Position numbers and translations under genes: made by a program. From Pseudomonas sp. MM223 (lineage in GTDB: Bacteria; Pseudomonadota; Gammaproteobacteria; Pseudomonadales; Pseudomonadaceae), in contig OX352322.1 of the NCBI GenBank assembly GCA_947090765.1, positions 3,579,501 through 3,643,500 of the forward strand: 64,000 nucleotides of DNA, given 5' to 3'. Positions 29,750 through 51,137 of this stretch are shown piece after piece. Within the stretch, counting starts at the first letter, position 1. Every line of letters begins with the position of its first letter. The notes under the pieces are model-generated. The model saw only the letters and a list, made by a program, of their open reading frames with translations. It was not told the origin of the DNA and ran no database searches.

Positions 29750-29815
29750 GTGTGCGTTGCACCTTCGGTACTTGGCAATTGACGCAAAGCCCGCCCCATG
29801 GTCTCCTTATGCCTC

Positions 29816-30017
29816 ACGTTCAGGTGCCCCCACAGGGGGTGAAACGGGAAACCGGTGCGTCCCAGGCCCTCCAGCAGGGCCGGACAAGACCGGTGCTGCC
29901 CCCGCAACGGTAAGCGAGTGAAGTGTCTGTACCACTGTGCCTTGTAGTCCGGCATGGGAAGGTGACGCTTTGCAGGAGCCCTGCTCCTCCTCGCAAGCCC
30001 GGAGACCGGCCTGGCGT
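29816..30017 (+). promoter_or_regulatory. Cobalamin riboswitch
   Basis: The region shows the conserved blocks of the AdoCbl riboswitch in order: an AGGTGCCCC start, GGGAAACCGGTGC, a GCTGCCCCCGCAACGGTAAG core, and the B12 box AAGCCCGGAGACCGGCCTG at about 29995-30014. It lies about 100 nt before cbtB and would lower expression of cbtB-cbtA-cobE-cobM when cobalamin is plentiful. Confidence 0.92.
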
Positions 30018-30122
30018 TCATGAACACCCCGCGGTGGGCGGGCGCTGTTGCATTCCCCTGGGCGGTCACGCATCGGGGATGCCGCGCTTGCCCGTTGCCC
30101 ACAAAAAGCAGAGGAACGCGTC

Positions 30123-33337: not shown

Positions 33338-35267
33338 ATGAAGCGCCTGCTGGCGTGCATGCTCCTGGCCATCGGCCTTGCCAGCCCCACCGCACTGCTG
33401 GCCAGCAGCGAACCTCGTCAACTGCTGGCGCGCTCGGTCAGCGCCGCAGCCCCGTTGCAACTGTCCAGCGAGGACCGCGATTGGCTGCAACGGCGTCAAT
33501 ACCTGGTGCTGGGCAGTTCGCGGCCAGACTACCCGCCGTTCGAAATCAACGCCAGCCAACAGGACTATGAAGGCATTAGCGCAGACTATGCGGGCATCAT
33601 CGCCGAGCAGCTGGGCATAAGCGTTGAGGTGCGCCGGTTCGACAGCCGCCACGAAGCCATCGCGGCGTTGCGTGAAGGCAGTATCGACCTGCTGGGCAAG
33701 CTCCAATGCCTTCGAAGCGGCAGACGCCCAGCTTAACCTGAGCACCCCGTATGCCGACGACTTGCCGGTGATCGTCACCCGAGAGGGGGGCAGCCTGAAA
33801 AACACGCCCGACCTTGCCGGCTTGCGCCTGGCCATGGTCGATCACTACCTGCCGGCCAGCGCCGTACGCAACCTGTACCCCAAAGCACAATTAAGCCTGT
33901 ACCGCTCGACCCTGGCCGGGCTGGCCGCCGTCGACCTCGGCGAGGCCGATGCCTACCTGGGCGATGCGATCAGCACCGACTTCACGATTGGCAAGAGTTA
34001 CCAGGGCACCCTGAAAATCGACCATTTCTGCCAGGTGCCGCCAGGGGCGTTTGCCTTTGCCCTGGCCAGTGACAACCCTCGTTTGCATCGCTTGGTCGAC
34101 AAGGCACTGGCCCGCATCAGCGAAAGCGAGCGCCTGAATATCCTGCGCCGCTGGAGCAGTGGCAATACCAGCCTGCTGCTCCAGCGCCACCTCACCGCAC
34201 TGAGCAAAGAAGAAGAAGCCTGGATCACTGCCCATCCCAACATCGACGTATTGGTCAATACCGCGCTGGCGCCACTGACCTTCAACGACGCCGAACACCG
34301 CCCAACCGGCATCACCCTTGACCTGCTTAAACAGATCTCGCTGCGTACCGGGCTGCAGTTCAGGCCTGTCGAAAGCGACTCGGCGCATGCAATGGTCGAG
34401 CGCCTGGCCCGCGGCGATGCACAAATGATCGGTGCCTTGGGTTACGGCTCGGACCGTTCGAAACAACTGCGCTATACCCGCCCCTATCTGGTCAGCCCAC
34501 GCGTACTGATTACCCGCAGCGACAGCACTTACCCCGCACAAGCCAAGGCGCTGGATGGCCAACGCATCGCCGTGGTACGCGGATCGCCGCTGCGGGCGCT
34601 GCTGCAACAACGCTATCCACAGGCGCGGCTGATCGAAGTGGACAACCCGCTCGGCCTCATGGAGGCAGTGGCCGGCGGGGCTGCCGACGTTGCCCTTGGC
34701 AGCCACATCACTGCCGCCTACTACATCAGCCATGTCTTCAAGGGCCGCTTGCGCATCGCCAGCGTGCTGGACGACGACCCGGCCATTGCCGCTTTCGCCG
34801 TGGCCGCGGACCAGCCGCAGCTACAGGCCATCCTCGACAAGGCGCTGCTGAGCATTCCACCCGAAGAGCTGGACCAACTGGTAAACCGCTGGCGCACCAG
34901 CACCTTGGTCAGCGACAGCCCCTGGCGCGACTATCGCACCCTGGCCTTGCAGGTACTGGTTTTGTCGGCCCTGTTGCTGGCAGGCGTGGTGTTCTGGAAC
35001 AGCTACCTGCGCAAGCTGATCAACCAGCGTACCGAGGCCCAGCACGCGCTCCAGGCGCAGTTGGCGTTGAGCCGCGGCCTGCTCGAACAACTGCGCCAGG
35101 CCAAGGACGACGCCGAACAGGCCAGCCAGACCAAAAGCACCTTCCTGGCCACCATGAGCCATGAAATCCGCACCCCGATGAATGCAATAACCCGTGACAT
35201 TCGTAGAAAATATCGCCAGCTGGCTTCTGTAACACAAAAAAGCCCCAGTCAGGGATATGAAACCTGA
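33338..35267 (+). pseudogene. N-terminal fragment of BvgS-like hybrid kinase (frameshift plus insertion)
   Basis: The 5' part encodes a signal peptide (MKRLLACMLLAIGLASP), two tandem periplasmic SBP_bac_3 sensor domains (first about 45-260, second about 290-510), a membrane helix (VLVLSALLLAGVVFWNSY) and the phospho-acceptor H-box MSHEIRTPMNA. Two lesions are visible. First, an extra base near 33699 (GGCAAGCTCC instead of GGCAGCTCC) shifts the frame inside the first sensor domain. Second, at 35185 a mobile element interrupts the H-box, replacing the rest with about 27 element-encoded residues up to the stop at 35267. Joining 33338-35185 to 49715-51137 and removing one base gives exactly 1089 codons plus stop. 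Confidence 0.9.
35175..35211. other. attL of the serine-recombinase element
   Basis: The chromosomal half carries CCGAT (35175-35179) then GAATGC; the element half begins AATAACCCGTG and ends GTAGAAAAT (35203-35211). The crossover dinucleotide is most likely GC at 35184-35185. Confidence 0.85.
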
Positions 35268-35513: not shown

Positions 35514-36065
35514 ATGAAAATCAAAACAAGGAACAGCGGCGGGCTTACATTAATCGAGGCCCTTATATGGTTCGCAATTTTTGCAGCAGTTGTAGCGGGA
35601 GTATTTGCACTTTACTCACAATCACGAAATTCTAGCAATGCATCAACAGTTAATAAAGAGCTATCAACAATATTCTCTCAAACGGAACAGCTTTTTGCAT
35701 CAGAAGATACTGCCCAGCTGACATCTGGTGGCAACAGATTAGCCATGAACCTTGGTATCTACCCAAGCAGCCTAAAAACCACCAAGGGCGGCATTAAGGT
35801 TCAAAACGTGTTTGGCGGAGAGGTGACAATTGAAGGGCAAAGTCCAAGCGGATTTTCTATTCAATACACAAACATCCCCAAGGGTGAGGTTTGTGCGAAC
35901 ATCGTGAAATCTCAAAAAGCAGTAGGATGGGATAGTGTCGGAACTGTTAAATACAATGACAGCTACAAAATCTCAGACGTATCTACTTACTGCGGAACCA
36001 ACGGCAGCGGAGTTATTGCGCTGAAATTCAGTAGAGATAACGCAAATGGAGCCACAACACCTTAA
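35514..36065 (+). CDS. Type IVb prepilin (PilS-like)
   Basis: A 183-residue prepilin. A short basic leader is followed by the processing site G-G-L-T-L-I-E-A-L (Glu at +5), then a hydrophobic helix (IWFAIFAAVVAGVFALYS) and a globular domain with two Cys (in GEVCANIV and STYCGTNG) able to form the C-terminal disulfide loop of type IVb pilins. In conjugative plasmids such pilins build thin pili for mating-pair contact. Here no assembly ATPase, platform or peptidase gene accompanies it, so it must rely on host machinery or be incorporated as a minor pilin. A+T-rich codon usage differs from the host. Confidence 0.8.
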   Translation: MKIKTRNSGGLTLIEALIWFAIFAAVVAGVFALYSQSRNSSNASTVNKELSTIFSQTEQLFASEDTAQLTSGGNRLAMNLGIYPSSLKTTKGGIKVQNVFGGEVTIEGQSPSGFSIQYTNIPKGEVCANIVKSQKAVGWDSVGTVKYNDSYKISDVSTYCGTNGSGVIALKFSRDNANGATTP

Positions 36066-36452: not shown

Positions 36453-36637
36453 TACGCGCTTTGCGCCGTGTTGGTTTGAATACCCATGGCGCATTCCAGA
36501 GCAAAATTTTAAGTGCATATGTGAACAGCCTTCGCCAAGATGTTCCCCCACGGGCTATTATCCCTGATATAGTTAAATTCCAACTTTTGTCTCACCAAGC
36601 CTTTCGTGCGATGGTAAATAAATTGACAGCCTTATAG
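36449..36637 (+). CDS. Short ORF overlapping an origin-like repeat
   Basis: A 62-codon frame starting in an ATGA overlap with the preceding gene. Its C-terminal half is formed by one copy of the repeated origin-like sequence (36533-36597), so coding potential is doubtful. Reported because of the coupled start. Confidence 0.25.
   Translation: MIRALRRVGLNTHGAFQSKILSAYVNSLRQDVPPRAIIPDIVKFQLLSHQAFRAMVNKLTAL
36533..36597. repeat. Origin-like repeat, copy A
   Basis: About 65 bp repeated almost exactly at 37027-37093. The conserved blocks are GGGCTATTATCCCTGATATA and CAACTTTTGTCTCAC. Read on the minus strand, the TATCAGGGATAATAGC block resembles the core of ColE2-type replication origins. Confidence 0.6.
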
Positions 36638-36993: not shown

Positions 36994-37026
36994 GCAAAAA
37001 TATTGGACTAGTAGGGAGAAAGTCCT

Positions 37027-37093
37027 GCCAAGACACTTCCCCTACGGGGCTATTATCCCTGATATAGTAAAAGTGCAACTTTTGTCTCACGCC
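37027..37093. other. ColE2-type origin candidate (repeat copy B)
   Basis: The second copy of the 65-bp repeat lies at the very end of the rep gene and just downstream of it, which is where ColE2-family plasmids keep their origin. On the minus strand it contains GAGAC followed by TATCAGGGATAATAGCCCC, close to the ColE2 core as I remember it. Confidence 0.6.
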
Positions 37094-38100
37094 AACTCAA
37101 TCGTCCCATCTTTAACTTTCCTGTAAAATGTGGCTCGGCTTATTCCAAGCTTCTCCCACGGCTTGGCCTCTGAAATGGTTTGACGCTCGGACTCAACGCC
37201 ATTTGCCTTTCTATAATAGTAGGTTCGTTTAGGAATACCTTCTGTCTCCCAAGGCTTATCGCCCGTGTAAATCACATTCCCTTTGCTTTTCTGCCTTGAT
37301 TGCTTGGCTCGCTCGCTTTTCAGTTCGTTCAATCTTTCAATAGAGAACTGCTGCGTTATGAAGCGATAGACGCTATCTGCGATGGTTCGCACCTCATTCA
37401 TACCTAACGGGCATTCAAAGGTGTTGAATAGCATCGCTTGGTCAAGAATTTGGGCGTTTAGCTCCACCTGGTGAAATCTGTGCCAGTTTGAATATGCCCA
37501 ATGGCGCAGGTTATCGAATAACGTGCAGTTCCTGCCAGACGCAAACCCATCCTCTACATTTTTCTTTTTCTTGGCTTCTCGCTGCTGCTTTACAAGGTCT
37601 TTATCTACAAACTCATTAAGATAGTCCAGGTCATACGGTTCATCCTCAAAGGAGAAAACGCTATATTCTGAACTCTGAAATGGATTCTTGGTTAAAAGTC
37701 CATTGTAATTCATATCTGCGCCTACTCTAACCGCAAGGCCGTGTTCAACATCGGAACAGTATTTTAACGGCTTTAATCGCCCGCTAACGTCTATTTTGAC
37801 TGATGTTTTGAGAATGTAGGTCATATGGGAGCGCCCATTGTCTAAATTTCTGACGATGAGGTGGGGAGCTGGTAGTCCTTTATTGGACCAGTCCATGGCG
37901 CTGATTTCACTATCTAAGTCAAAAATAAGGAAGTATTTGTGAGTAGCTGAATTTGGCTGTATGTAGTTTGATTTAAGGGCTGTTTTTAAACTAGTAACCT
38001 TTTTGCCAAATGAATAGTTGTTTGTGTAGTAGGGCTTTGGTGGTAGTTTTGACTTGTATAGTTCAAGAGCGCTTTCAAGTCTGGAAGGTGCATATCTCAT
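37087..38100 (-). CDS. ColE2-type replication initiator (replicase plus PriCT domains)
   Basis: A 337-residue Rep protein. The N-terminal replicase domain shows YFLIFDLDSE (near residue 55), LPAPHLIVRNLDNGRSHMTY (about 75-95) and a GLLTKNPF block (about 154); a PriCT-type segment follows with GRNCTLFDNLRHWAY (about 208). The C-terminal third is basic and contains two HTH-like repeats (KPWETEGIPKRTYYYRKA and KPWEKLGISRATFYRKV) that would contact the origin. ColE2-type Rep both binds the origin and primes leading-strand synthesis. RBS AGGAG 3 nt before the ATG. The origin candidate overlaps its 3' end. This gene implies that the excised circle can replicate. Confidence 0.85.
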   Translation of the reverse strand: MRYAPSRLESALELYKSKLPPKPYYTNNYSFGKKVTSLKTALKSNYIQPNSATHKYFLIFDLDSEISAMDWSNKGLPAPHLIVRNLDNGRSHMTYILKTSVKIDVSGRLKPLKYCSDVEHGLAVRVGADMNYNGLLTKNPFQSSEYSVFSFEDEPYDLDYLNEFVDKDLVKQQREAKKKKNVEDGFASGRNCTLFDNLRHWAYSNWHRFHQVELNAQILDQAMLFNTFECPLGMNEVRTIADSVYRFITQQFSIERLNELKSERAKQSRQKSKGNVIYTGDKPWETEGIPKRTYYYRKANGVESERQTISEAKPWEKLGISRATFYRKVKDGTIELA

Positions 38101-40439: not shown

Positions 40440-40455
40440 GCCATGAATATCCTTA

Positions 40456-40502
40456 GTTGCGGTTGCGGTTGCGGTTGCGGTTGCGGTTGCGGTTGCGGTT
40501 GC
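40456..40502. repeat. Hexanucleotide tandem repeat (GGTTGC)n
   Basis: Seven full and one partial GGTTGC units (GCAACC on the coding strand of the downstream gene). The tract lies between the XRE regulator gene and the nuclease-like gene, within the latter's leader or promoter. The unit is a multiple of three and the frame through it is open but lacks a normal start codon. Confidence 0.9.
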
Positions 40503-40551
40503 GGTCAGAGATGAGGCTTTGGAATCAAAACTTACAGATTTAGCTGCTTAA

Positions 40552-42627: not shown

Positions 42628-44301
42628 ATGAAATTTTCAAAAACGCTCTTACCTTTGCTGCTCTCTATCCTGTTACCGAATGCATATGCGGACGGAGGAA
42701 GTGGGTCAAACTCATCTACAACCTGTTCGGGAGTGGCTGCATGTCCAGCAGGCCAAGCCGGGTCAGTCTCTTTCACATATAGGATTCAGTTTTATGACAA
42801 AGGAAGATGTCCGGGAATAACGGATGAAGTTCAGAATAGGTTCCAGCAAGGACAGAGCAATGAAGATGTTATGTATTATCTGCACAAGGCAACACATTAT
42901 GCTGGGACGCAGAATATAAATATATCAAGAAACTGCATTGATGCTGGGCCAACTTACCAGTCAACTCAAACTGAAACGCAAAATTTACAGTGCCCAGCGA
43001 CTCAGCCAGGTGGTGTATGGACACAAAGTAGAACTTATGAGTTATGGTCTGACGGTAGCCATAGAAACCCTTCTGCGTGGGCTGATGTAATCAAGACCTG
43101 CGTAGCGGCCCCAGTAGGCAGAGGCACGGATACGCAAAGCCTGAATTGCCCTGCATCGGCTCCCAAAGGAATATGGACGCAGACTAGGACATATGACCTT
43201 TGGTCTGACGGCACTAAAACGAATTTCTCACCTTGGGTTGACTCGGCAAAAACTTGTGCGGCTGGAATACAGAGCAGAGAAACCGAGTCTAGAACTGTTA
43301 GCTGTGCGATTGGTGAAATAGGATCAATTCAACAGAAACAAACCTATGAAATTTGGACCGATGGGTCGAAGAAAAACTATTCTGGCTGGGTCGTTAGCTC
43401 TAAGAATTGTAAAGCTGTTCCTACAACAACGACTGAGACAAGAGAAGGTGTGCAAGAAGAAACATGCGACTCTTACAACGAAGTTCCAGCAGGAACCTTC
43501 TCTGGAACCGTCTACAAATACGGGACATACATAACAACATATAGCGAGACAACAAAACAAACTGACACAAAATTCAAGCTCAGATCATTGGACTTTACTT
43601 CTTGTGTTTATCAGTTTGATGAAATCATAACGGAAACTCAGGAGCTACAATGCCCTGCGGGACAAAGTGGGTCTATCCAACAATATAGAATTAGAGTCAA
43701 AACAACATCTGGCGCATTGATTTACCCTGACAGGCTTGCACCTGACGGAGTAAATAAGATAAGTGGAAAAACTTGGATTACTAGCAATAATAGCTGTGCA
43801 ACAACACAGAAAGAAATTCAGAATTCAAATATTGAAACTCCGCCAGAAGGTTTGTTAAGCAATATATCTGTAACCTCGTCCAGCTTGCAGGGCGGAGAAG
43901 TATTTTCGAACTATCTTAATAGCCTTTCTGCTTCAAGCTGGGCGACGAATGAGCGTCACAAATTGATAGTGAATATAGATGACCTGAGCAGTGGGAAATA
44001 CAGTGCCAGCAAGATTGGTGCAGTCGTTTCTAAATTCCAATCCGTGGTGGGTGCTAGGAATGCTGATATTGAAATAGCCCTACCTAGGACGATAGATAAA
44101 TATGTCGGCAATGGCGAGATAACTGCCCAAGCAGTGAAGGAAAAGACAGTGCTGATGAAAGACGTTTATTTTGAAGGGGGTGATGTAAGGCTGACCTACA
44201 TGCAGCTTGGCAAGAAAACAATAGAAAAGCCTCAGTCAAAGGAGGTCGTGATTAATGTTATCCCAAAAAATTTAGGCATAAGAGGCGTATTTTCAAATTG
44301 A
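42628..44301 (+). CDS. Large secreted Cys-rich repeat protein, possible adhesin
   Basis: A 557-residue protein with a signal peptide (cleavage after NAYA). From about residue 118 it contains repeated modules of about 50 residues with the pattern L-x-C-P-A ... G-x-W-T-Q-x-R-T-Y-x-L-W-S-D-G ... K-T-C (starting near 118, 172 and 224, with a degenerate one near 336). Each module has two Cys that could be paired. The C-terminal 150 residues lack Cys and look like a separate alpha/beta domain. The architecture fits an extracellular adhesion or pilus-tip protein and the element also carries a prepilin, but no homology is certain. Confidence 0.5.
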   Translation: MKFSKTLLPLLLSILLPNAYADGGSGSNSSTTCSGVAACPAGQAGSVSFTYRIQFYDKGRCPGITDEVQNRFQQGQSNEDVMYYLHKATHYAGTQNINISRNCIDAGPTYQSTQTETQNLQCPATQPGGVWTQSRTYELWSDGSHRNPSAWADVIKTCVAAPVGRGTDTQSLNCPASAPKGIWTQTRTYDLWSDGTKTNFSPWVDSAKTCAAGIQSRETESRTVSCAIGEIGSIQQKQTYEIWTDGSKKNYSGWVVSSKNCKAVPTTTTETREGVQEETCDSYNEVPAGTFSGTVYKYGTYITTYSETTKQTDTKFKLRSLDFTSCVYQFDEIITETQELQCPAGQSGSIQQYRIRVKTTSGALIYPDRLAPDGVNKISGKTWITSNNSCATTQKEIQNSNIETPPEGLLSNISVTSSSLQGGEVFSNYLNSLSASSWATNERHKLIVNIDDLSSGKYSASKIGAVVSKFQSVVGARNADIEIALPRTIDKYVGNGEITAQAVKEKTVLMKDVYFEGGDVRLTYMQLGKKTIEKPQSKEVVINVIPKNLGIRGVFSN

Positions 44302-44344: not shown

Positions 44345-44365
44345 GCCACCTTCGGGTGGCTTTTT
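44345..44365 (+). terminator. Intrinsic terminator
   Basis: GCCACC/GGTGGC stem with a TTCG tetraloop followed by TTTTT; it ends the Cys-rich protein transcript and meets the end of the convergent relaxase gene. Confidence 0.8.
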
Positions 44366-45974
44366 ATGGCCTGATAATTTTGCGCCTTATCTCCTTAGCT
44401 GGTGGTATTTCAAGAAGCTCATTGCCATACAGCTCTAATTCAGCTAATTGCGTATCTACCTGAGCCTCTGCCTTCTTGGTGAAACGACCATCCTCGGACT
44501 TATCATTCTCACGAACTCTCTCATAAGCTTTTCTTGCACGTTCCAAGCATTTGTCTTGAATATCTTTGCGTCGAGCGGAGAAAGTTTCTTCAAGCCAATT
44601 TGTAATTCCATCCATTAGCTCAGACATATTATTTCTAAACAATCTTAAATCAGATTTGATTCTTGCATGCACGGCCTCTTCTTGTGCTCTATTAGCACGG
44701 TCCTTGGTAAGAACGTCCTGATAATACTCAGATTTACGACGATAGGAATCTGCCTGCTCGTATTCCTCTATGGTAGCCTCGACAGCCAGTCTATGACGCT
44801 CTGTGGCGTCTTGTGCGGCTTGTTGCGCCTGCTTAGCTTTTTCCTCTTCAATCTCTCTGACCTGCTGCGCCTGCTTCGCCTTCTGTTCGGATTCTTTCTG
44901 TCTCTCTTGGGCGAGGGTGTAGAGGTTGAAAGCACGTTCAGATTTCGGCTTCATCGCCTCCATCTGGATTTGGCGAAGCTTGCGAGTATGTTCCTCGGTT
45001 TTAGCGTGCTTGCGTGCTCTGGTAGACGTTTCTTTCAGGAGATAGTTATTGGTGAATGCATAGAACATATCCTGAATGTATCCGCCAAATAGCTGTGATT
45101 CAGCCCATGTCATGGGGTAATTGAGTTGTGGAGCTTTGGGCTTGTGTTTTTTCAGATATTCATTAACCACTGCGACCTGACTTCGCTTTATATCATACAG
45201 TCCAGTTTTTGAGTTTCTGCCAGACACAAAAACATGGGGATGGTCGCCGTGCTCTTTTCCATCCAAATTTTCATCGCCATGAAAGGCTGCGAACAAGACT
45301 GGATAATCCGGCAATGTAGCTTTATAAAAGCGTAGAATGTGGTTTATACGGTCCTCTGGTGAAATTCCCTCGACTTGATTCTTATCAGGAAATTTGAAGA
45401 ACGCTTCTTGTAAGACTGTCGAGTCAATGCGTGTTTTGGGAATGGTTAAAGCCTGAATTTTGTTGTGGCACTCCAAGAGTTTTCTGGCATTCGCCATCTT
45501 TTGATTTTTGCGCTTAATGTCGAACTGGTCGAGATCGCCCAACAGTTGATCAATATCAGCAACGCCACTGACGTTTAAGATATTTTGAAATGCTTGAATC
45601 GTGGCTACATCGGTTTCCTGCTTGGATGCTTTGTTGAATTTGTGTTTTAGCTTGCTGCGCTCATTCACCAGCTCAGATTTTTGCTCTGCCGATTCTTTGA
45701 CCTGTATCGCATCAGAGGCAATTTTTTCAAGCATACCTTCTCGCTGTTCCTTCGATATTGAGTCAAGTGGAACAATGCCAGTTTTTGGAGTCCATATCAG
45801 ATTGCGATTGGAATACTCGTCGAGCCATTCCAGCTTTTTAGGTTCGGTCTGAGGGATACGGAGCGAGTGTCTGATACTTTTATGATACTGCCTGCGACCG
45901 CCAATTTTCGTTTTTATCTTATTTGTATAATTGGCGATTTTGAAAATCATTGTAGTTGTCTTTTTGTCATTCAT
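44364..45974 (-). CDS. MOBV-like relaxase / mobilisation protein
   Basis: A 536-residue protein. Its central part has HGDENLDGKEHGDHPHVFVS (about 233-252), which matches the histidine triad of Mob_Pre/MOBV relaxases (H-x-D-E ... H-x-H), preceded by a helix (INHILRFYKATLPDYPVLF) as in MobM. The N-terminus is basic and could carry motif I. The C-terminal 200 residues are a long charged coiled coil (Glu/Lys/Gln/Ala-rich). Relaxases nick oriT and pilot the transferred strand. An oriT-like inverted repeat lies 67 bp upstream of the start. RBS GGGAGAG 4 nt before the ATG. Family assignment is by motif only. Confidence 0.65.
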   Translation of the reverse strand: MNDKKTTTMIFKIANYTNKIKTKIGGRRQYHKSIRHSLRIPQTEPKKLEWLDEYSNRNLIWTPKTGIVPLDSISKEQREGMLEKIASDAIQVKESAEQKSELVNERSKLKHKFNKASKQETDVATIQAFQNILNVSGVADIDQLLGDLDQFDIKRKNQKMANARKLLECHNKIQALTIPKTRIDSTVLQEAFFKFPDKNQVEGISPEDRINHILRFYKATLPDYPVLFAAFHGDENLDGKEHGDHPHVFVSGRNSKTGLYDIKRSQVAVVNEYLKKHKPKAPQLNYPMTWAESQLFGGYIQDMFYAFTNNYLLKETSTRARKHAKTEEHTRKLRQIQMEAMKPKSERAFNLYTLAQERQKESEQKAKQAQQVREIEEEKAKQAQQAAQDATERHRLAVEATIEEYEQADSYRRKSEYYQDVLTKDRANRAQEEAVHARIKSDLRLFRNNMSELMDGITNWLEETFSARRKDIQDKCLERARKAYERVRENDKSEDGRFTKKAEAQVDTQLAELELYGNELLEIPPAKEIRRKIIRP

Positions 45975-46040
45975 CTCTCCCTCATGTTGATAATTAATTT
46001 TGGATTCTGCGCTGCTTTTGCTTCTGCCATTCCGGCCAGG

Positions 46041-46109
46041 AACTCGTTATCACTACCGCAAGCGAAGCGTTTTTACGAAGTAAAATGTGGTAGTGATATG
46101 AAACGAGTT
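46041..46109. other. Candidate oriT inverted repeat
   Basis: AACTCGTTATCACTACCGCA (46041-46060) is matched in inverted form by 46086-46109, with a 4-nt bulge and one mismatch, around a 25-nt spacer. TTTTTACGA occurs in the spacer and again just after the right arm. It lies directly upstream of the relaxase gene, the usual place for an oriT. Confidence 0.55.
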
Positions 46110-46182
46110 TATTTTTACGACAGGCAACACGGAGTAATTTTATAAATACATTATAACATGCGCTGCGGACTGCTTTTGCTCT

Positions 46183-46341
46183 TAGCCGGATTTGTCCGGC
46201 TAGACCTGATTTGTCAGGTCTGCTTTTCGCTGGATTTGTCCAGCGACTCGGACTTGTCCGAGGCTTTGGTTTTTAGCCGGATTTGTCCGGCTGGCCCTGA
46301 CTTGTTAGGGCCTGCTTTTGGCGCTGGATTTGTCCAGCGCC
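46183..46341 (+). ncRNA. Array of seven hairpins with invariant A(T/C)TTGT loops
   Basis: Seven consecutive stem-loops: 46183-46202, 46202-46221, 46228-46245, 46247-46262, 46275-46292, 46293-46312 and 46320-46341. Every loop is ATTTGT or ACTTGT, while stems differ in sequence but stay paired (5-8 bp). Hairpins 1-3 and 5-7 look like a duplicated unit with TGCTTTT before the third hairpin of each; between copies, hairpin 2/6 shows compensatory changes (A-T to G-C, A-T to C-G). The array ends 98 nt before the EAL gene. It could act as a structured 5' leader RNA or as single-stranded DNA structures. Confidence 0.7.
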
Positions 46342-46439
46342 GTCACGCAGAGCCTGATGGTGGAAAATGCTCGGAGAGGCTCTATGCAAGCCCTCAGAGA
46401 TGTGGCATAAAACCGAAATAGGGGTCATGGGTGGTGCGC

Positions 46440-47990
46440 ATGAAAAAACTCGAAAAAGGCACTCTGTGCTATTTAGCTGGATGCATGACGGTTGGAGTGC
46501 TGTTCTCGTTTGGCGTGTCACAGGCTCTATGGTTGGTGAGTGCAGATAACAGAATAGAATCCTACGCTAACGTTGTTCTGAACCATGCCGAAATGGTCGC
46601 AGGAAACCTTACAGCTGCGCTTGATGAACTAAACAATACATCTGCCCTGTCATGCGGACCACCTGACCTAGATACGCTAAAAAGAGTTACCTTTGACTAT
46701 CGCTTTGTAAAAGATGCTGGACGAATAGAAAACAATACAATTACTTGCTCTGCTATGTGGGGAATAATCCCCGCTTTCAGGTTGGATGGTGAAGGTAGAC
46801 TTACGAAAAACAATGTTAGGCTGTGGGGTGGAGCTTCAAGCTATTTTCCTGGCGCAATAAAAATTGATGTTTCAGCAAAAGAAAACTCATTTGTGGTTAC
46901 GTCACCCACCGCATTTGCACCTTTTGAATCACCGCCAGCAGAATTAAGTGCATTTGTTGTCTCTCGTGACGGCAAAGCCATCATGCGCACGTTCGGCGAT
47001 TTTCAGCAAGGAAATATCCTAAGCAGCGCATCTGCAAGAGTGTGCTCTGAAAAATACGACATTTGTGTTAACTCGAACATTCAAGCAAATGTTTTCAAGG
47101 CCAGCAAACCTAGCCTTATCTTGTTTGTCACATTAATTGGCTGTTCTTTGGGGCTGTTGGCTTTCTATGCTGCCCACCAATATCGTAGAGTTAGAAACTC
47201 ACTTTCATATCGATTGAAATACGCTATTAATAATGGACTAATATCAACTGCATATCAGCCGATTGTTCATGGCAAAACTGGCAAGGTTTCCGGATTCGAG
47301 GTTTTGGCACGCTGGCACGATAAGAAATTCGGATCAGTCCCTCCAAATGTCTTCATCCAAAAAGCGGAAGATCTTGGTTTGCAAGAAAAGCTGAGTAAGC
47401 TGATTGTTAATAGGGCTTTGGAAGAGTGTTCGAGAGGCCTGGCATGCAATCCGGGGATATATTTGAGTTTTAACATTGAAACCAAAGACCTGCTGGATGG
47501 CGGTCTAATTCGACACATATCAGATACAGCAAGAAATCACGGTGTATCAGCTAGTCAGATTGCAATTGAAATTCTTGAAGGGGCAACGGCTGAAATCAGC
47601 CAGGTTGAACAAAAGATTGAGTCCATCCGAGCGTCTGGTTATAAAGTATTAATTGACGATTTCGGCTCAGGATATTCAAGTCTATCCTATCTGGCCGGGC
47701 TCAATGTTGATGTTATAAAAATTGACAAGTCGTTCTCACAAGCTGCTGGAACAGATTCTCCGGCAGCAGTAGTGCTGCAAAAGATTCATGAAATAGCAAA
47801 AGCTTTAAACGCAAAAATAATTTTTGAGGGCGTGGAGACGGAAGCGCAGAAAAAAGCAATTCTTGATTTCTGTCCTGATGCACTTGTTCAAGGATGGCTA
47901 TTCAGCAAGGCATTGCCAATTAGCGAACTCACTGAAAAAGTCAGATCGCAAAGAGCTAGGGGAGAAGCGATGAATTTTGCACATGAATAA
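46440..47990 (+). CDS. CSS-motif EAL-domain c-di-GMP phosphodiesterase
   Basis: A 516-residue membrane protein. Two membrane helices (about 8-30 and 224-246) bracket a periplasmic CSS-type domain with conserved Cys (SALSCGPP and TITCSAMW). The cytoplasmic EAL domain shows the catalytic set: Glu in FEVLARW (EVL variant), Asn in SFNIETKD, Glu in IEILEG, the DDFGSGYSSL loop, Lys in VIKIDKSF and FEGVETEAQ. These residues predict active hydrolysis of c-di-GMP, with redox or disulfide control through the CSS domain as in Enterobacterial PdeB/PdeC-type enzymes. A phosphodiesterase on the element could bias the host away from biofilm. Confidence 0.85.
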   Translation: MKKLEKGTLCYLAGCMTVGVLFSFGVSQALWLVSADNRIESYANVVLNHAEMVAGNLTAALDELNNTSALSCGPPDLDTLKRVTFDYRFVKDAGRIENNTITCSAMWGIIPAFRLDGEGRLTKNNVRLWGGASSYFPGAIKIDVSAKENSFVVTSPTAFAPFESPPAELSAFVVSRDGKAIMRTFGDFQQGNILSSASARVCSEKYDICVNSNIQANVFKASKPSLILFVTLIGCSLGLLAFYAAHQYRRVRNSLSYRLKYAINNGLISTAYQPIVHGKTGKVSGFEVLARWHDKKFGSVPPNVFIQKAEDLGLQEKLSKLIVNRALEECSRGLACNPGIYLSFNIETKDLLDGGLIRHISDTARNHGVSASQIAIEILEGATAEISQVEQKIESIRASGYKVLIDDFGSGYSSLSYLAGLNVDVIKIDKSFSQAAGTDSPAAVVLQKIHEIAKALNAKIIFEGVETEAQKKAILDFCPDALVQGWLFSKALPISELTEKVRSQRARGEAMNFAHE

Positions 47991-48054: not shown

Positions 48055-49650
48055 TTAGAGATGGGGCCTATTTTCGGCAGTGTATCCATCCGGAGTGACA
48101 CTGATGCGGTCAATGTGCTCATCAGCCAAGTGAATATCCATGATGAAATGTTTTTTCTTAATAGGCGTTATAGTGAGTCTTACGTTTTGACCGATTAGGA
48201 AATTATTTACTCGCATTCGCCCATGCTCGGTTAAAAGGAGCTTGTAAATTTCCATAACGTTAAGCATGGATTTACTGGCCAGATGCAGTGAACTAATTTT
48301 TAGGCTAATTTCATTATGTTTTGCTTTAAGCTGATCCAAGTCGTGAGCTACTTCCTCAATTTTGCTTAAAATGTATTTTTTGGCCGTTTCCGAGGCATTA
48401 GTAAGAATGTCGAAATTGCTTGCTAATGATTTTTCCTGTTGAAGAATTTTTCCAGCTAGCTCTTGCTTTTCATTTTCGAGCGACTTAATGTCCTTAGACT
48501 TTGGTATTATTCTGTGAAAAGGGATAAGAGATTGGTAGGCAAGGAATATTTCCTCTATTCGTGCATATCTATATCTGACGCCTTTTCCTGGTGATGCATA
48601 CGTGCAGCGTCCAGCCAATGAGGCCGAGCACACTAAGTCAACATACTCTCTTTTCTGGGCGTGGTAACGGAAGCCCGAGCCACAGGCACAAAAAACAATC
48701 CCTCGTAAGATGTTTTTGAATTCTGCGACCTTCCGCCCTGCAAGTTTTGGGTCTTGTCGCTCACTCAATTTTGCGCCGACCCTATAAAACTCTGCCTCTG
48801 AAATTACTGCCGGATAATAGCCTTTAATCTCTTTTTTGACCTGAATCGGCTTACCTGATTCGTCCCACTCCATAGCGATAAAAGACCCGTAAATTGCGGG
48901 CTGTCGAAGAACCTTCCCAACAACGCTTTCAGTATATTTCTTGGGGAAGTTCATCTTGTTTAATTCTTGGGCGATTGCTCTTGCACCCATTTCAAAACAG
49001 AGTTCTGCGGCACGTTTCACGGCTTCTGCATGTTCGTTAAGGATGAATCCCTCATCAACATAGCTGATCCAGAAAGGGCATCGCCTTGTGATTATCTCGC
49101 CGCTTTCACCTTTCAATAAGTTTCGTGCCTTGGCGTCTGATATACGCTCTGACTTGTTACGACTTTCATCGTTTGCCCGTTCCAATATATTTTGGATTAG
49201 GCTTATATCGACACTGCTATCTCGCTTCCTACGCGAGTAGAGGCGGTTATCAAAGAGAGTGTAAATTGCACAATCGGCTTGGATGATTGAGATTATTAGT
49301 TCAAGGGCGTCATAGCCACCCATCCGGCTGATACGGTCGAATGACTCGACCAGCAGTAGGGCATTGGGAAGGATCTCTTTGGCTTTGATTCGCTCCACGA
49401 AGCGAGCCAACTGACCGGATTTCAGGTTCTTGCCCTTGAAGGCAGATACGCCCAAATCCTCGTAGTGCTCGACCTGCCTCGCCTGCGGGTATTGCTCAAA
49501 AAACCGGGTAAGCTGGTCTAATTGCCGTTTCTCGCCAAAGCCCAGCTTTTGGGCTTTGGATGAAAAACGGATGTAGCTGTAAACGTTGATGGTGTCGTCG
49601 CCCTGGAACACCTCCGCAAAGGCTCTGGGCAAGGGATTTGTGCTGGTCAT
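48055..49650 (-). CDS. Large serine recombinase (integrase of the element)
   Basis: A 531-residue large serine recombinase. The N-terminal resolvase domain contains Y26-x-R28-x-S30-x3-Q34 (nucleophile Ser30) and LLVESFDRISRM near 105. A recombinase domain follows (AIAQELNKMNFPKKYTESVVGKVLRQP near 240), then a zinc ribbon (FCACGSGF ... DLVCSASLAGRC) and a coiled-coil insertion (KSLENEKQELAGKILQQEKSL near 400). ATG at 49650 is preceded by GTGGAG at proper spacing, unlike the GTG at 49665. It reads away from attR, whose crossover is 64 bp upstream. No recombination directionality factor is obvious in the element. Confidence 0.93.
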   Translation of the reverse strand: MTSTNPLPRAFAEVFQGDDTINVYSYIRFSSKAQKLGFGEKRQLDQLTRFFEQYPQARQVEHYEDLGVSAFKGKNLKSGQLARFVERIKAKEILPNALLLVESFDRISRMGGYDALELIISIIQADCAIYTLFDNRLYSRRKRDSSVDISLIQNILERANDESRNKSERISDAKARNLLKGESGEIITRRCPFWISYVDEGFILNEHAEAVKRAAELCFEMGARAIAQELNKMNFPKKYTESVVGKVLRQPAIYGSFIAMEWDESGKPIQVKKEIKGYYPAVISEAEFYRVGAKLSERQDPKLAGRKVAEFKNILRGIVFCACGSGFRYHAQKREYVDLVCSASLAGRCTYASPGKGVRYRYARIEEIFLAYQSLIPFHRIIPKSKDIKSLENEKQELAGKILQQEKSLASNFDILTNASETAKKYILSKIEEVAHDLDQLKAKHNEISLKISSLHLASKSMLNVMEIYKLLLTEHGRMRVNNFLIGQNVRLTITPIKKKHFIMDIHLADEHIDRISVTPDGYTAENRPHL

Positions 49651-49686
49651 GGATGTTCTCCACACCTATGGATAGAGGATGCTAAC

Positions 49687-49723
49687 ATTTTCTACCAAAA
49701 GCGCTTGTGATTGCCGTGATCGG
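49687..49723. other. attR of the serine-recombinase element
   Basis: The element half carries ATTTTCTAC (49687-49695), the inverted match of GTAGAAAAT at attL, then CAAAAGCGCTTGTGATTGC; the chromosomal half continues CGTG then ATCGG (49719-49723). The crossover GC is at 49713-49714. Confidence 0.85.
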
Positions 49724-51137
49724 CCTGCTGGAGCTGGCCCTGGAAGACAGCCGCGAGGGCCGCTGCGACGCCCAGACCCTTCAGACTGCCCATGACTCGG
49801 CCATCGGCCTGCTTGAGTTGATTGGCGATATTCTCGACATTTCCCGTATCGAAACCGGGCACGTTACCCTGCAACCGGTACCCACCAACCTGGTCGACCT
49901 GGTGCGCACGACAGTACGGGTATTTGAAGGCAACGCGCGGGCCAAAGGCTTGCATCTGCACGCAGAACTGCCTGCCGAGCCAGTCTGGGTACTGGCAGAC
50001 CCTCTGCGCCTCAAGCAGGTCCTGTCCAACCTGATCAGCAACGCCATCAAGTTCACTGACCGCGGCGAGGTGCAGGCCAGCTTGCTGATGGCTTCAGCCG
50101 ATGAGCACAATAACCTGCCCATCGAACTGTGCGTGCGTGACACTGGCATCGGCATCAGCCCCGCTGATCAGGCGCGGCTGTTCAACGCCTTCGTTCAGGC
50201 TGACGGCCCACGGGCACGCCAAGGGGCAGGCCTGGGGTTGGTCATCAGCCGCGCCTTTGCCGAACTGATGGGCGGCAGCTTGAGCCTGCAAAGCGTCCAG
50301 GGCGTCGGTACCAAGGTGCAAGTCGGCCTGCAATTGCCAGCCTGCCCGGCACCGGCGCCTGCCCGGCAACATGCCCCGGCAACTGAAAGCAGCAGTGGCC
50401 CACTGAATATCCTGGTGGTCGACGACTACCCGGCCAACCTGTTGTTGCTGGAGCGGCAGTTGCACACCTTGGGCCATCACGTGACCTTGGCAGAAAACGG
50501 CCAGGTCGCGCTGGAGCGCTGGCAGGCAGCGCGCTTCGACCTGGTGATCACCGATTGCAGCATGCCTGTCATGGACGGCCACGAACTCACCCGTCGCATT
50601 CGCAGCCTTGAAGCCGAGCGCGGTCTGCCGGCGTGCCAGATACTCGGCGTGACCGCCAACGCCCAGGCCGAAGAGCGTGAACGTTGCCTGACCAGCGGCA
50701 TGAACGAATGCCTATTCAAGCCGATCGGCCTGCGCACGCTAAAGGCTTCCCTGCCCCAAGCCCTCAGCGCCCAAGTGCCGCCATTGCGCGGTAGCGGCTT
50801 CAACCTGGCTGAGTTGCGCCACCTGACCCAAAACGACAAGCAACTGACGCGGCACCTGCTGGAACAGCTGTCGATAAGCGTTGGCGAAGACTTGGCCAGC
50901 TTGCGCGCACTCACGCCTGAAGCCTCGGATGAGGCCGTCCGCACCCTGGCCCACCGCATCAAGGGTGGCGCGAAAATGATCAGGGTGCGCGGCGTGGTCG
51001 AGGATTGCGAAGCCATCGAACACGCCCACGCACGCGGCCTGCCAACGGTTGCTCAACGTGAACAGCTGCAAATCAGCCTGCAGGCCCTGCTGAACGAGTT
51101 AAGCGATGCGCTCAATGCAATTGCAGCGTCGAGCTGA
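49715..51137 (+). pseudogene. C-terminal fragment of BvgS-like hybrid kinase
   Basis: This fragment resumes the kinase exactly after the H-box (VIGLLELALEDSREG). It contains the rest of the HisKA helix, an HATPase domain (DPLRLKQVLSNLISNAIKF and GAGLGLVISRAF), a receiver domain (ILVVDDYPANLLLL; phospho-Asp in LVITDCSMP) and an Hpt domain (LAHRIKGGAKM). A GTG at 49707 at the junction could start a soluble HATPase-receiver-Hpt protein of about 476 residues, without the H-box. Whether it is made is unknown. The stop overlaps the convergent MCP gene by 26 bp. Confidence 0.88.

Follow-up and report, generated by a model that had tools for sequence, protein, structure and literature searches.

A tandem array of fixed-loop hairpins beside a probable transfer origin in integrated islands of the Pseudomonadaceae

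We describe a tandem array of seven hairpins at 46183-46341 of a 64,000-nucleotide (nt) stretch of Pseudomonas sp. MM223 DNA (the window; assembly GCA_947090765.1, contig OX352322.1, positions 3,579,501 to 3,643,500). The array lies between the start of a gene for a 536-amino-acid (aa) MobM/MobA-like relaxase (44364..45974, minus strand) and a gene for a CSS-EAL c-di-GMP phosphodiesterase (46431..47990, plus strand). Arrays of this kind recur with one clade of relaxases and an oriented palindrome, on a fixed strand and at a similar spacing. We give roughly even chances to the reading of the array as a conserved cis element of the transfer origin of integrated, probably mobilizable islands, with the start of the complementary strand as its likeliest task; most likely, it acts on the single strand of DNA handed on to the recipient cell. 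To our knowledge, the conversion of the incoming single strand to duplex DNA is poorly known for Gram-negative mobilizable islands. A strand-specific array that accompanies one relaxase clade and keeps much the same distance to a probable transfer origin is a short and testable DNA element, and it also yields a covariance model for finding arrays and a candidate protein domain for binding them.

Structure of the hairpin array

All loops in the window array are closed by an A-T pair and read TTTG in five hairpins and CTTG in two, on stems of 6-10 base pairs (bp) with a single G-T pair. On the plus strand, hairpin 1 is TAGCCGGA-TTTG-TCCGGCTA (46183..46202; R1 score 29.4 bits), hairpin 2 is GACCTGA-TTTG-TCAGGTC (46203..46220; 26.7 bits), hairpin 3 is TCGCTGGA-TTTG-TCCAGCGA (46227..46246; 27.3 bits) and hairpin 4 is CTCGGA-CTTG-TCCGAG (46247..46262; 25.2 bits). 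They are followed by hairpin 5, AGCCGGA-TTTG-TCCGGCT, with the core of hairpin 1 (46275..46292; 29.3 bits), hairpin 6, GGCCCTGA-CTTG-TTAGGGCC, with the G-T at its second pair (46293..46312; 26.5 bits), and hairpin 7, GGCGCTGGA-TTTG-TCCAGCGCC (46320..46341; 27.9 bits); the R1 scores of hairpins 2, 4 and 6 are those of the genome search. Because hairpins 1 and 5 share a core, hairpins 3 and 7 share another, and hairpins 2 and 6 differ by compensatory changes, hairpins 1-3 and 5-7 form a duplicated unit with a compensated middle hairpin, as a preliminary description of this DNA had proposed. A related locus, L017, has just one such three-hairpin unit.

Across the ten arrays described below, a paired arrangement with some hairpins -1 to 2 nt apart is present in eight (the exceptions are L018 and L021), and the linkers between hairpins contain GCTTT. 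Loops follow YTTG, with TATG, TGTG and CTTT as rare variants among 33 tabulated hairpins. Left of the array, L021 has a run of TTTTTTGC repeats in an expanded linker, and L018 has a shorter one. Right of the array, four loci (L014, L019, L022 and L202) carry a longer nested hairpin with a CTTG loop and a GGTG/TGCG-like internal loop, whose stems vary by locus; two of these hairpins entered the GAYTTGTY count given below. CTG, as a possible site for DnaG in the linkers, was inspected by eye and is not conserved.

Statistical support and covariation

The description of seven tandem hairpins with a conserved loop and differing but always paired stems held up in shuffling, in a motif-based test and in covariation analysis. 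A strict non-overlapping count finds five hairpins in the window array, rather than seven, because neighbouring stems share bases; 2000 dinucleotide shuffles averaged 0.11 and never exceeded 2. The minimum free energy of the array as RNA has z = -10.5 (300 shuffles). When sites were picked by the motif GAYTTGTY alone, ignoring stems at selection, stems of at least 5 bp were found at 29/30 sites inside the ten array regions and at 1/22 sites elsewhere in those loci; within the window, the counts were 7/7 in the array versus 0/5 outside it.

In an alignment of 24 distinct hairpins, taken from the window and its relatives, 92.7% of cells are paired versus 67.8% after shuffling, although the former figure is partly so by construction because rows were preselected for at least five pairs. 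Double-changed cells number 51 versus 17 in shuffles, both sides have changed in 7/8 stem pairs and the covariation score is 0.704 versus 0.236, with none of 500 shuffles reaching either the cell count or the score; the covariation events are fewer than the cells, because many rows are paralogues or close orthologues. Sliding the stem partners abolishes the signal. Since the loop is fixed while stem sequences vary, we read the array as acting through hairpins, not as duplex DNA.

Mismatched pairs have a polarity. The tabulation of 33 hairpins, four of them from L057, admitted only those with at least five pairs; it passed over three doubly wobbled hairpins of L014/L022 (added afterwards as two distinct rows) and could not take in hairpins with A-C close to the loop. 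Wobbles were therefore recounted under one rule for G-T and A-C. On the plus strand, the 35 hairpins of the ten arrays contain eight G-T and zero A-C within pairs 1-7, six of the G-T pairs being at the second position and two at the seventh; there is a further G-T in a partial hairpin of L202, and one A-C at pair 8. The array scores below the gathering score of every Rfam family, and searches of an open-access library turned up no such array in print.

Arrays accompany one relaxase clade

A search for relatives of the 536-aa protein gave matches in 13 of 398 genus genomes at E 1e-10 and in five of 398 family genomes at E 1e-60, with some overlap between the two sets; peptide patterns located 12 loci in genome_contigs, the species collection. 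Ten distinct loci, the window included, carry a relaxase relative at least 46% identical, and all ten have an array or its remains, with two to seven hairpins each. Nine are from Pseudomonas and one (L202) is from another GTDB genus of the same family; in L202 one hairpin is intact, one is partial and the remainder has decayed, and the L019 array is partly decayed. Arrays are absent from the nine loci whose relaxase relatives are at most 42% identical and whose upstream DNA was visible. Three loci with upstream DNA out of view (L013, L016 and L026) were not counted for arrays, and duplicates were identified as L201 = L021, L002, L003 and L004 = L017, L018 and L019, and L010 = L063.

A three-loop pattern, independent of the protein, matches 15/398 genus genomes, of which seven have hairpin arrays (G000 has two), and 6/369 class genomes, with arrays solely in G000; it misses two-hairpin arrays such as that of G073. 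Judged from their matched letters only, the remaining matches are direct repeats or lack such stems. The single-hairpin model, applied to 150 of 1523 first-look candidates in the window's own genome, gave 13 matches, ten of them in two islands and three isolated, the best of the latter being GCCTGTATTTGTACAGGC (24.5 bits). Matches to the hairpin model, a search suggested in the preliminary description, are consequently not scattered without context; among those inspected, arrays occur only in this element family. Viral contigs gave no relaxase relative and at least 120 pattern stretches, one of which, among those listed (L184), has repeated palindromes of another kind, and plasmids gave two distant relaxase relatives, in Vibrio and Photobacterium.

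Three other associations were considered. In three species (L056, L057 and L058; genomes G227, G245 and G077), the islands have decayed and still keep four hairpins, the rep-to-relaxase stretch being replaced by DNA with an IS66-type transposase (Pfam on L057); these loci, outside the ten arrays, were rejected as counter-examples with an array and no relaxase because the islands are decayed. A tie to the replication protein (Rep) alone is weakened by Rep relatives at array-less loci (L064, L067/L023, L068/L024 and L025), and a tie to the recombinase was rejected because L063 combines a 70% identical recombinase and a 33% identical relaxase with no array.

The relaxase belongs to a family that the copies of Pfam, NCBIfam and PHROGs used here do not recognise: it has no match in them at E 0.1, and neither Pfam nor the PDB gave a meaningful sequence match. 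It has a MobM-like HUH fold, as in MOBV relaxases. The MOBV relaxase motif is HxDE...HxH; here, H232-x-D-E and HPH at 245-247 are invariant in 32 sequences, with a longer spacing. A histidine nucleophile is another mark of MOBV relaxases; in the alignment, H36 is invariant and no Tyr before position 217 is. Other relaxase families did not turn up in the VIA-align list, which is no evidence of their absence. In a tree of 26 relaxases, one fork contains exactly the ten array rows (support 96/98), and P0078, P0081, P0083, P0084 and P0086, whose DNA was not seen for arrays, branch just outside it.

An oriented palindrome and a predicted nick

Read along the window's plus strand, the relaxase gene (itself on the minus strand) is followed by a nested palindrome, an AT-rich stretch and then the hairpins. 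The palindrome resembles an origin of transfer (oriT); it spans 46041..46109 on the plus strand (AACTCGT...ACGAGTT), with an inner hairpin TTTTAC-GAA-GTAAAA at 46071-46085, and ends ~75 bp left of the array. A comparable palindrome precedes the relaxase gene at all 19 loci compared, with outer arms AACCCG...CGGGTT across loci and AACTCG...CGAGTT in the window. Eight of its 25 consensus pairs show double changes (8 sequences), and plus-strand G-T pairs occur in it as well.

According to excerpts of two papers on pMV158, a hairpin lies 5' of its nick, in the site TAGTGTG/TTA (PMC5090054, PMC5863519). Modelled on this arrangement, the predicted nick in the window falls at 46089/46090, directly after ATGTG. 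A script restricted to GTGTG and two listed variants found GTGTG 3' of the inner hairpin, on the strand equivalent to the window's plus strand, at 16/19 loci, GTCTG at 2/19 and ATGTG in the window. The distance from the predicted nick to the first hairpin is 67-93 nt in nine of the ten arrays and 169 nt in L021, and in all ten arrays the strand relative to the relaxase is identical and the spacing similar. If the pMV158 analogy holds, the transferred strand would have the array on its leading side. The nick analogy and the G-T polarity agree on the plus strand.

A predicted start site for the complementary strand

We propose that the relaxase would nick the plus strand at the adjoining palindrome and that the nicked strand would be unwound. 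The array, ~70-250 nt behind the predicted nick and thus in the DNA expected to leave first, would then fold into a string of hairpins, while the GCTTT linkers would remain single-stranded. The recognition unit may be the fixed A-YTTG-T loop, presented on an interchangeable stem, and several such units would allow multiple binding. The likeliest job would be to start the complementary strand on the transferred strand, or on the strand displaced by rolling-circle replication, like a single-strand origin (sso) or single-strand initiation site (ssi); priming might proceed via the host's RNA polymerase or primase, or via the island's own primase-like Rep.

Several points weigh against this proposal, and sso activity of the array is itself a prediction. 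Known origins carry motifs such as TATAAT, TTGACA, AAGCGG and TAGCGT, the last being the CS-6 of ssoA-type origins, and none occurs exactly in all ten array regions (TATAAT 0/10, TTGACA 1/10, TAGCGT 3/10 and AAGCGG 0/10). The nick is assigned by analogy, and the base after GTGTG, at the 16 loci that have it, is G or A, not the T of the MOBV1 oriT site 5'-GTGTG/TT. Furthermore, GTGTG lies here on the strand opposite the relaxase gene, unlike in pMV158, whose nick is placed on the relaxase coding strand in an excerpt of PMC5863519. The G-T polarity, with its eight wobbles in related hairpins, would fit a plus-strand RNA as well. Lastly, the L019 and L202 arrays are part-decayed beside intact relaxase frames, and so not all copies can be essential.

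Known systems share individual features with the array. Like the sso of rolling-circle plasmids and sso1 of ICEBs1, which in the part of PMC4595007 consulted is described as stem-loops in one strand downstream of oriT, the array comprises several one-strand stem-loops near a putative oriT, on the predicted transfer strand; unlike them, it consists of up to seven near-equal small tandem hairpins with one loop motif. MOBV1 modules (pMV158 MobM; IMESag-rpsI) share the HUH relaxase fold and, if the predicted nick is right, an oriT hairpin 5' of a GTGTG nick, and the MOBV1 integrative and mobilizable element likewise has an sso-like element. In contrast to those modules, the relaxase described here has a large helical insertion and a C-terminal segment, the oriT-like site is a long nested palindrome and a hairpin array stands in place of ssoA. 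IncQ ssi sites work with a plasmid primase. Both the IncQ ssi sites and the pRN1 origin are stem-loop origins used by a primase-family Rep, and the island encodes a Rep with PF03090 and PriCT domains. The pRN1 origin, in an excerpt of PMC4234260, is one 100-nt stem-loop beside the rep gene, whereas the island's rep is ~8 kb from the array and related Reps occur without arrays.

Alternative explanations

A tentative alternative is that the array represents a leading-strand element of a new kind, a modular string of DNA hairpins, with fixed loops and interchangeable stems, that is read by the relaxase's C-terminal domain or by Rep and loads several copies onto the transferred strand. In a more specific form, which ranks next after the favoured reading and which we consider rather unlikely, the loops would serve in relaxosome docking or transferred-strand loading: the relaxase's clade-specific C-terminal helical segment, or a partner, would bind them, and several copies of the relaxase, or a pilot complex, would be brought together on the leading strand. 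Hidden Markov models of segments of the relaxase were trained on 28 close sequences, including the window's, and that of the HUH segment has matches in all ten relaxases of distant loci (among them L013, a fragment with its upstream DNA not seen). The model of segment 431-536 scores 120-157 bits in 10/10 array-bearing relaxases, and in the distant ten it has no match in nine and 14.7 bits in L203; among the loci viewed, the segment was seen only with arrays. Linker-like GCTTTTGCTT also occurs left of the palindrome at many loci. However, C-terminal ends may simply diverge faster, since the coil segment 313-430 falls to 8-37 bits in the distant relaxases as well, and segment 431-536 is also present in P0078 and P0081-P0083, whose flanking DNA was out of view. 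It was not detected in P0084 and P0086. Because the arrays form a single clade, the association between array and segment counts as one evolutionary event, not ten.

The remaining explanations concern expression. The array could be a transcribed plus-strand small RNA or leader, whose hairpins titrate an RNA-binding protein or control the gene to the right, as covariation and plus-strand G-T (G-U) pairs would allow; we consider this improbable. The gene to the right encodes an EAL protein in the window and in L017, L018 and L021, as it does in the decayed L056-L058 copies; in L022 a DNA-methylase-like gene reads away (L022:8442-9566, PF01555, on the predicted transferred strand). Five arrays thus have a rightward-reading gene directly beside them, and five (L005, L014, L019, L020 and L202) are retained with none directly right: a recombinase gene points at the array in L014/L069, L005/L070 and L020 (~0.4 kb off), and a tRNA-Ser is to the right in L019 (the same place as L004) and L202. 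Because the right neighbours vary, an RNA role tied to one gene is unlikely, and the EAL leader offered in the preliminary description fails as a general account, although the array may act as a leader where a gene does read away from it. A sigma-70 scan of 45900-46500 found no site, and hairpins 1 and 5 cross-pair under RNA folding parameters, whereas DNA parameters predict seven local hairpins, with hairpin 6 in a shifted form. A CsrA/RsmA sponge would be expected to expose GGA in its hairpin loops. Here GGA is outside the loop and, judging from sequence, paired in the stem, and 8/33 hairpins carry TGA, ATA or GAA instead, which leaves the sponge unsupported; of the three functions offered earlier, single-stranded DNA for transfer fits best. 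More improbable still is a single-strand promoter like Frpo, from which RNA polymerase would transcribe the genes that enter the recipient first, for example the EAL or methylase-like gene. Like Frpo and ssi promoters, the array would be folded DNA near oriT in the predicted leading region, and the five outward genes are directly right of it on the predicted transferred strand; methyltransferase genes on that strand are typical of the leading regions of conjugative plasmids, and Frpo has its -35/-10 elements within a promoter-like stem, according to the portion of PMC11541004 consulted. Unlike in Frpo, the two hexamers are rare or absent in the array regions, as counted above (relatives were scanned for exact hexamers only), and the other five arrays have no such gene directly right. 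We regard as very improbable that the hairpins are tandem terminators insulating the relaxase region from cargo. Three plus-strand terminator-like matches were found versus 0.9 expected, because the hairpins are trailed by TGCTTTT, but these tails are not continuous (GCTTTT) and are found ahead of the first hairpin too, a terminator has no need of one shared loop sequence and, by eye, no U-tract faces the recombinase genes that read from the other side in L005, L014 and L020. Least probable of all is a role as duplex sites, either operators or cruciforms, that regulate the relaxase promoter: at the ten loci the array does keep a similar distance upstream of the relaxase gene, but its arms vary around a fixed asymmetric centre, the reverse of a dyad operator.

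The island and its other genes

The array resides in an AT-rich island of ~14.5 kb, at about 35.2-49.7 kb of the window, with a GC content per whole kilobase of 38-49% versus 56-69% in the rest of the window. The island interrupts a gene for a hybrid histidine kinase (SBP_bac_3, HisKA, HATPase, receiver and Hpt domains) at its H-box codons (HEIRTPMNA; 35170-35200 and 49690-49730), and the second island of the same genome (L069) has the identical H-box sequence at its end. As both islands end at an H-box, the large serine recombinase, a probable integrase (48055..49665, minus strand; phrog_95 integrase), seems to target a conserved kinase motif.

No transfer apparatus was recognised among the island genes scanned, and the PF10412 coupling protein was not found in the genome, other coupling-protein families and a helper not having been looked for. 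The island does encode a PilS-type prepilin (35514..36065, plus strand; PF08805, 51.9 bits) and may perhaps adapt the type IVb mating pilus of a helper. Another island gene encodes a protein of 557 aa whose start is signal-like (42628-44301), and a third PilS gene lies outside the two islands (G000:C1:838797-839180).

The primase-like replication protein (37087..38100, minus strand) contains PF03090 Replicase and PriCT-1 domains. Near its gene, a ~60-bp near repeat, CTATTATCCCTGATATAG...AACTTTTGTCTCA, flanks a small reading frame (36532-36591 and 37026-37090); it is also matched in L059 and L060 and is a candidate replication origin. A short tandem run of GGTTGC hexamers (~40455-40505) lies upstream of a 673-aa gene. 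The sole Rfam match at the gathering threshold in the window is a cobalamin riboswitch at 29805-30028 (103.8 bits).
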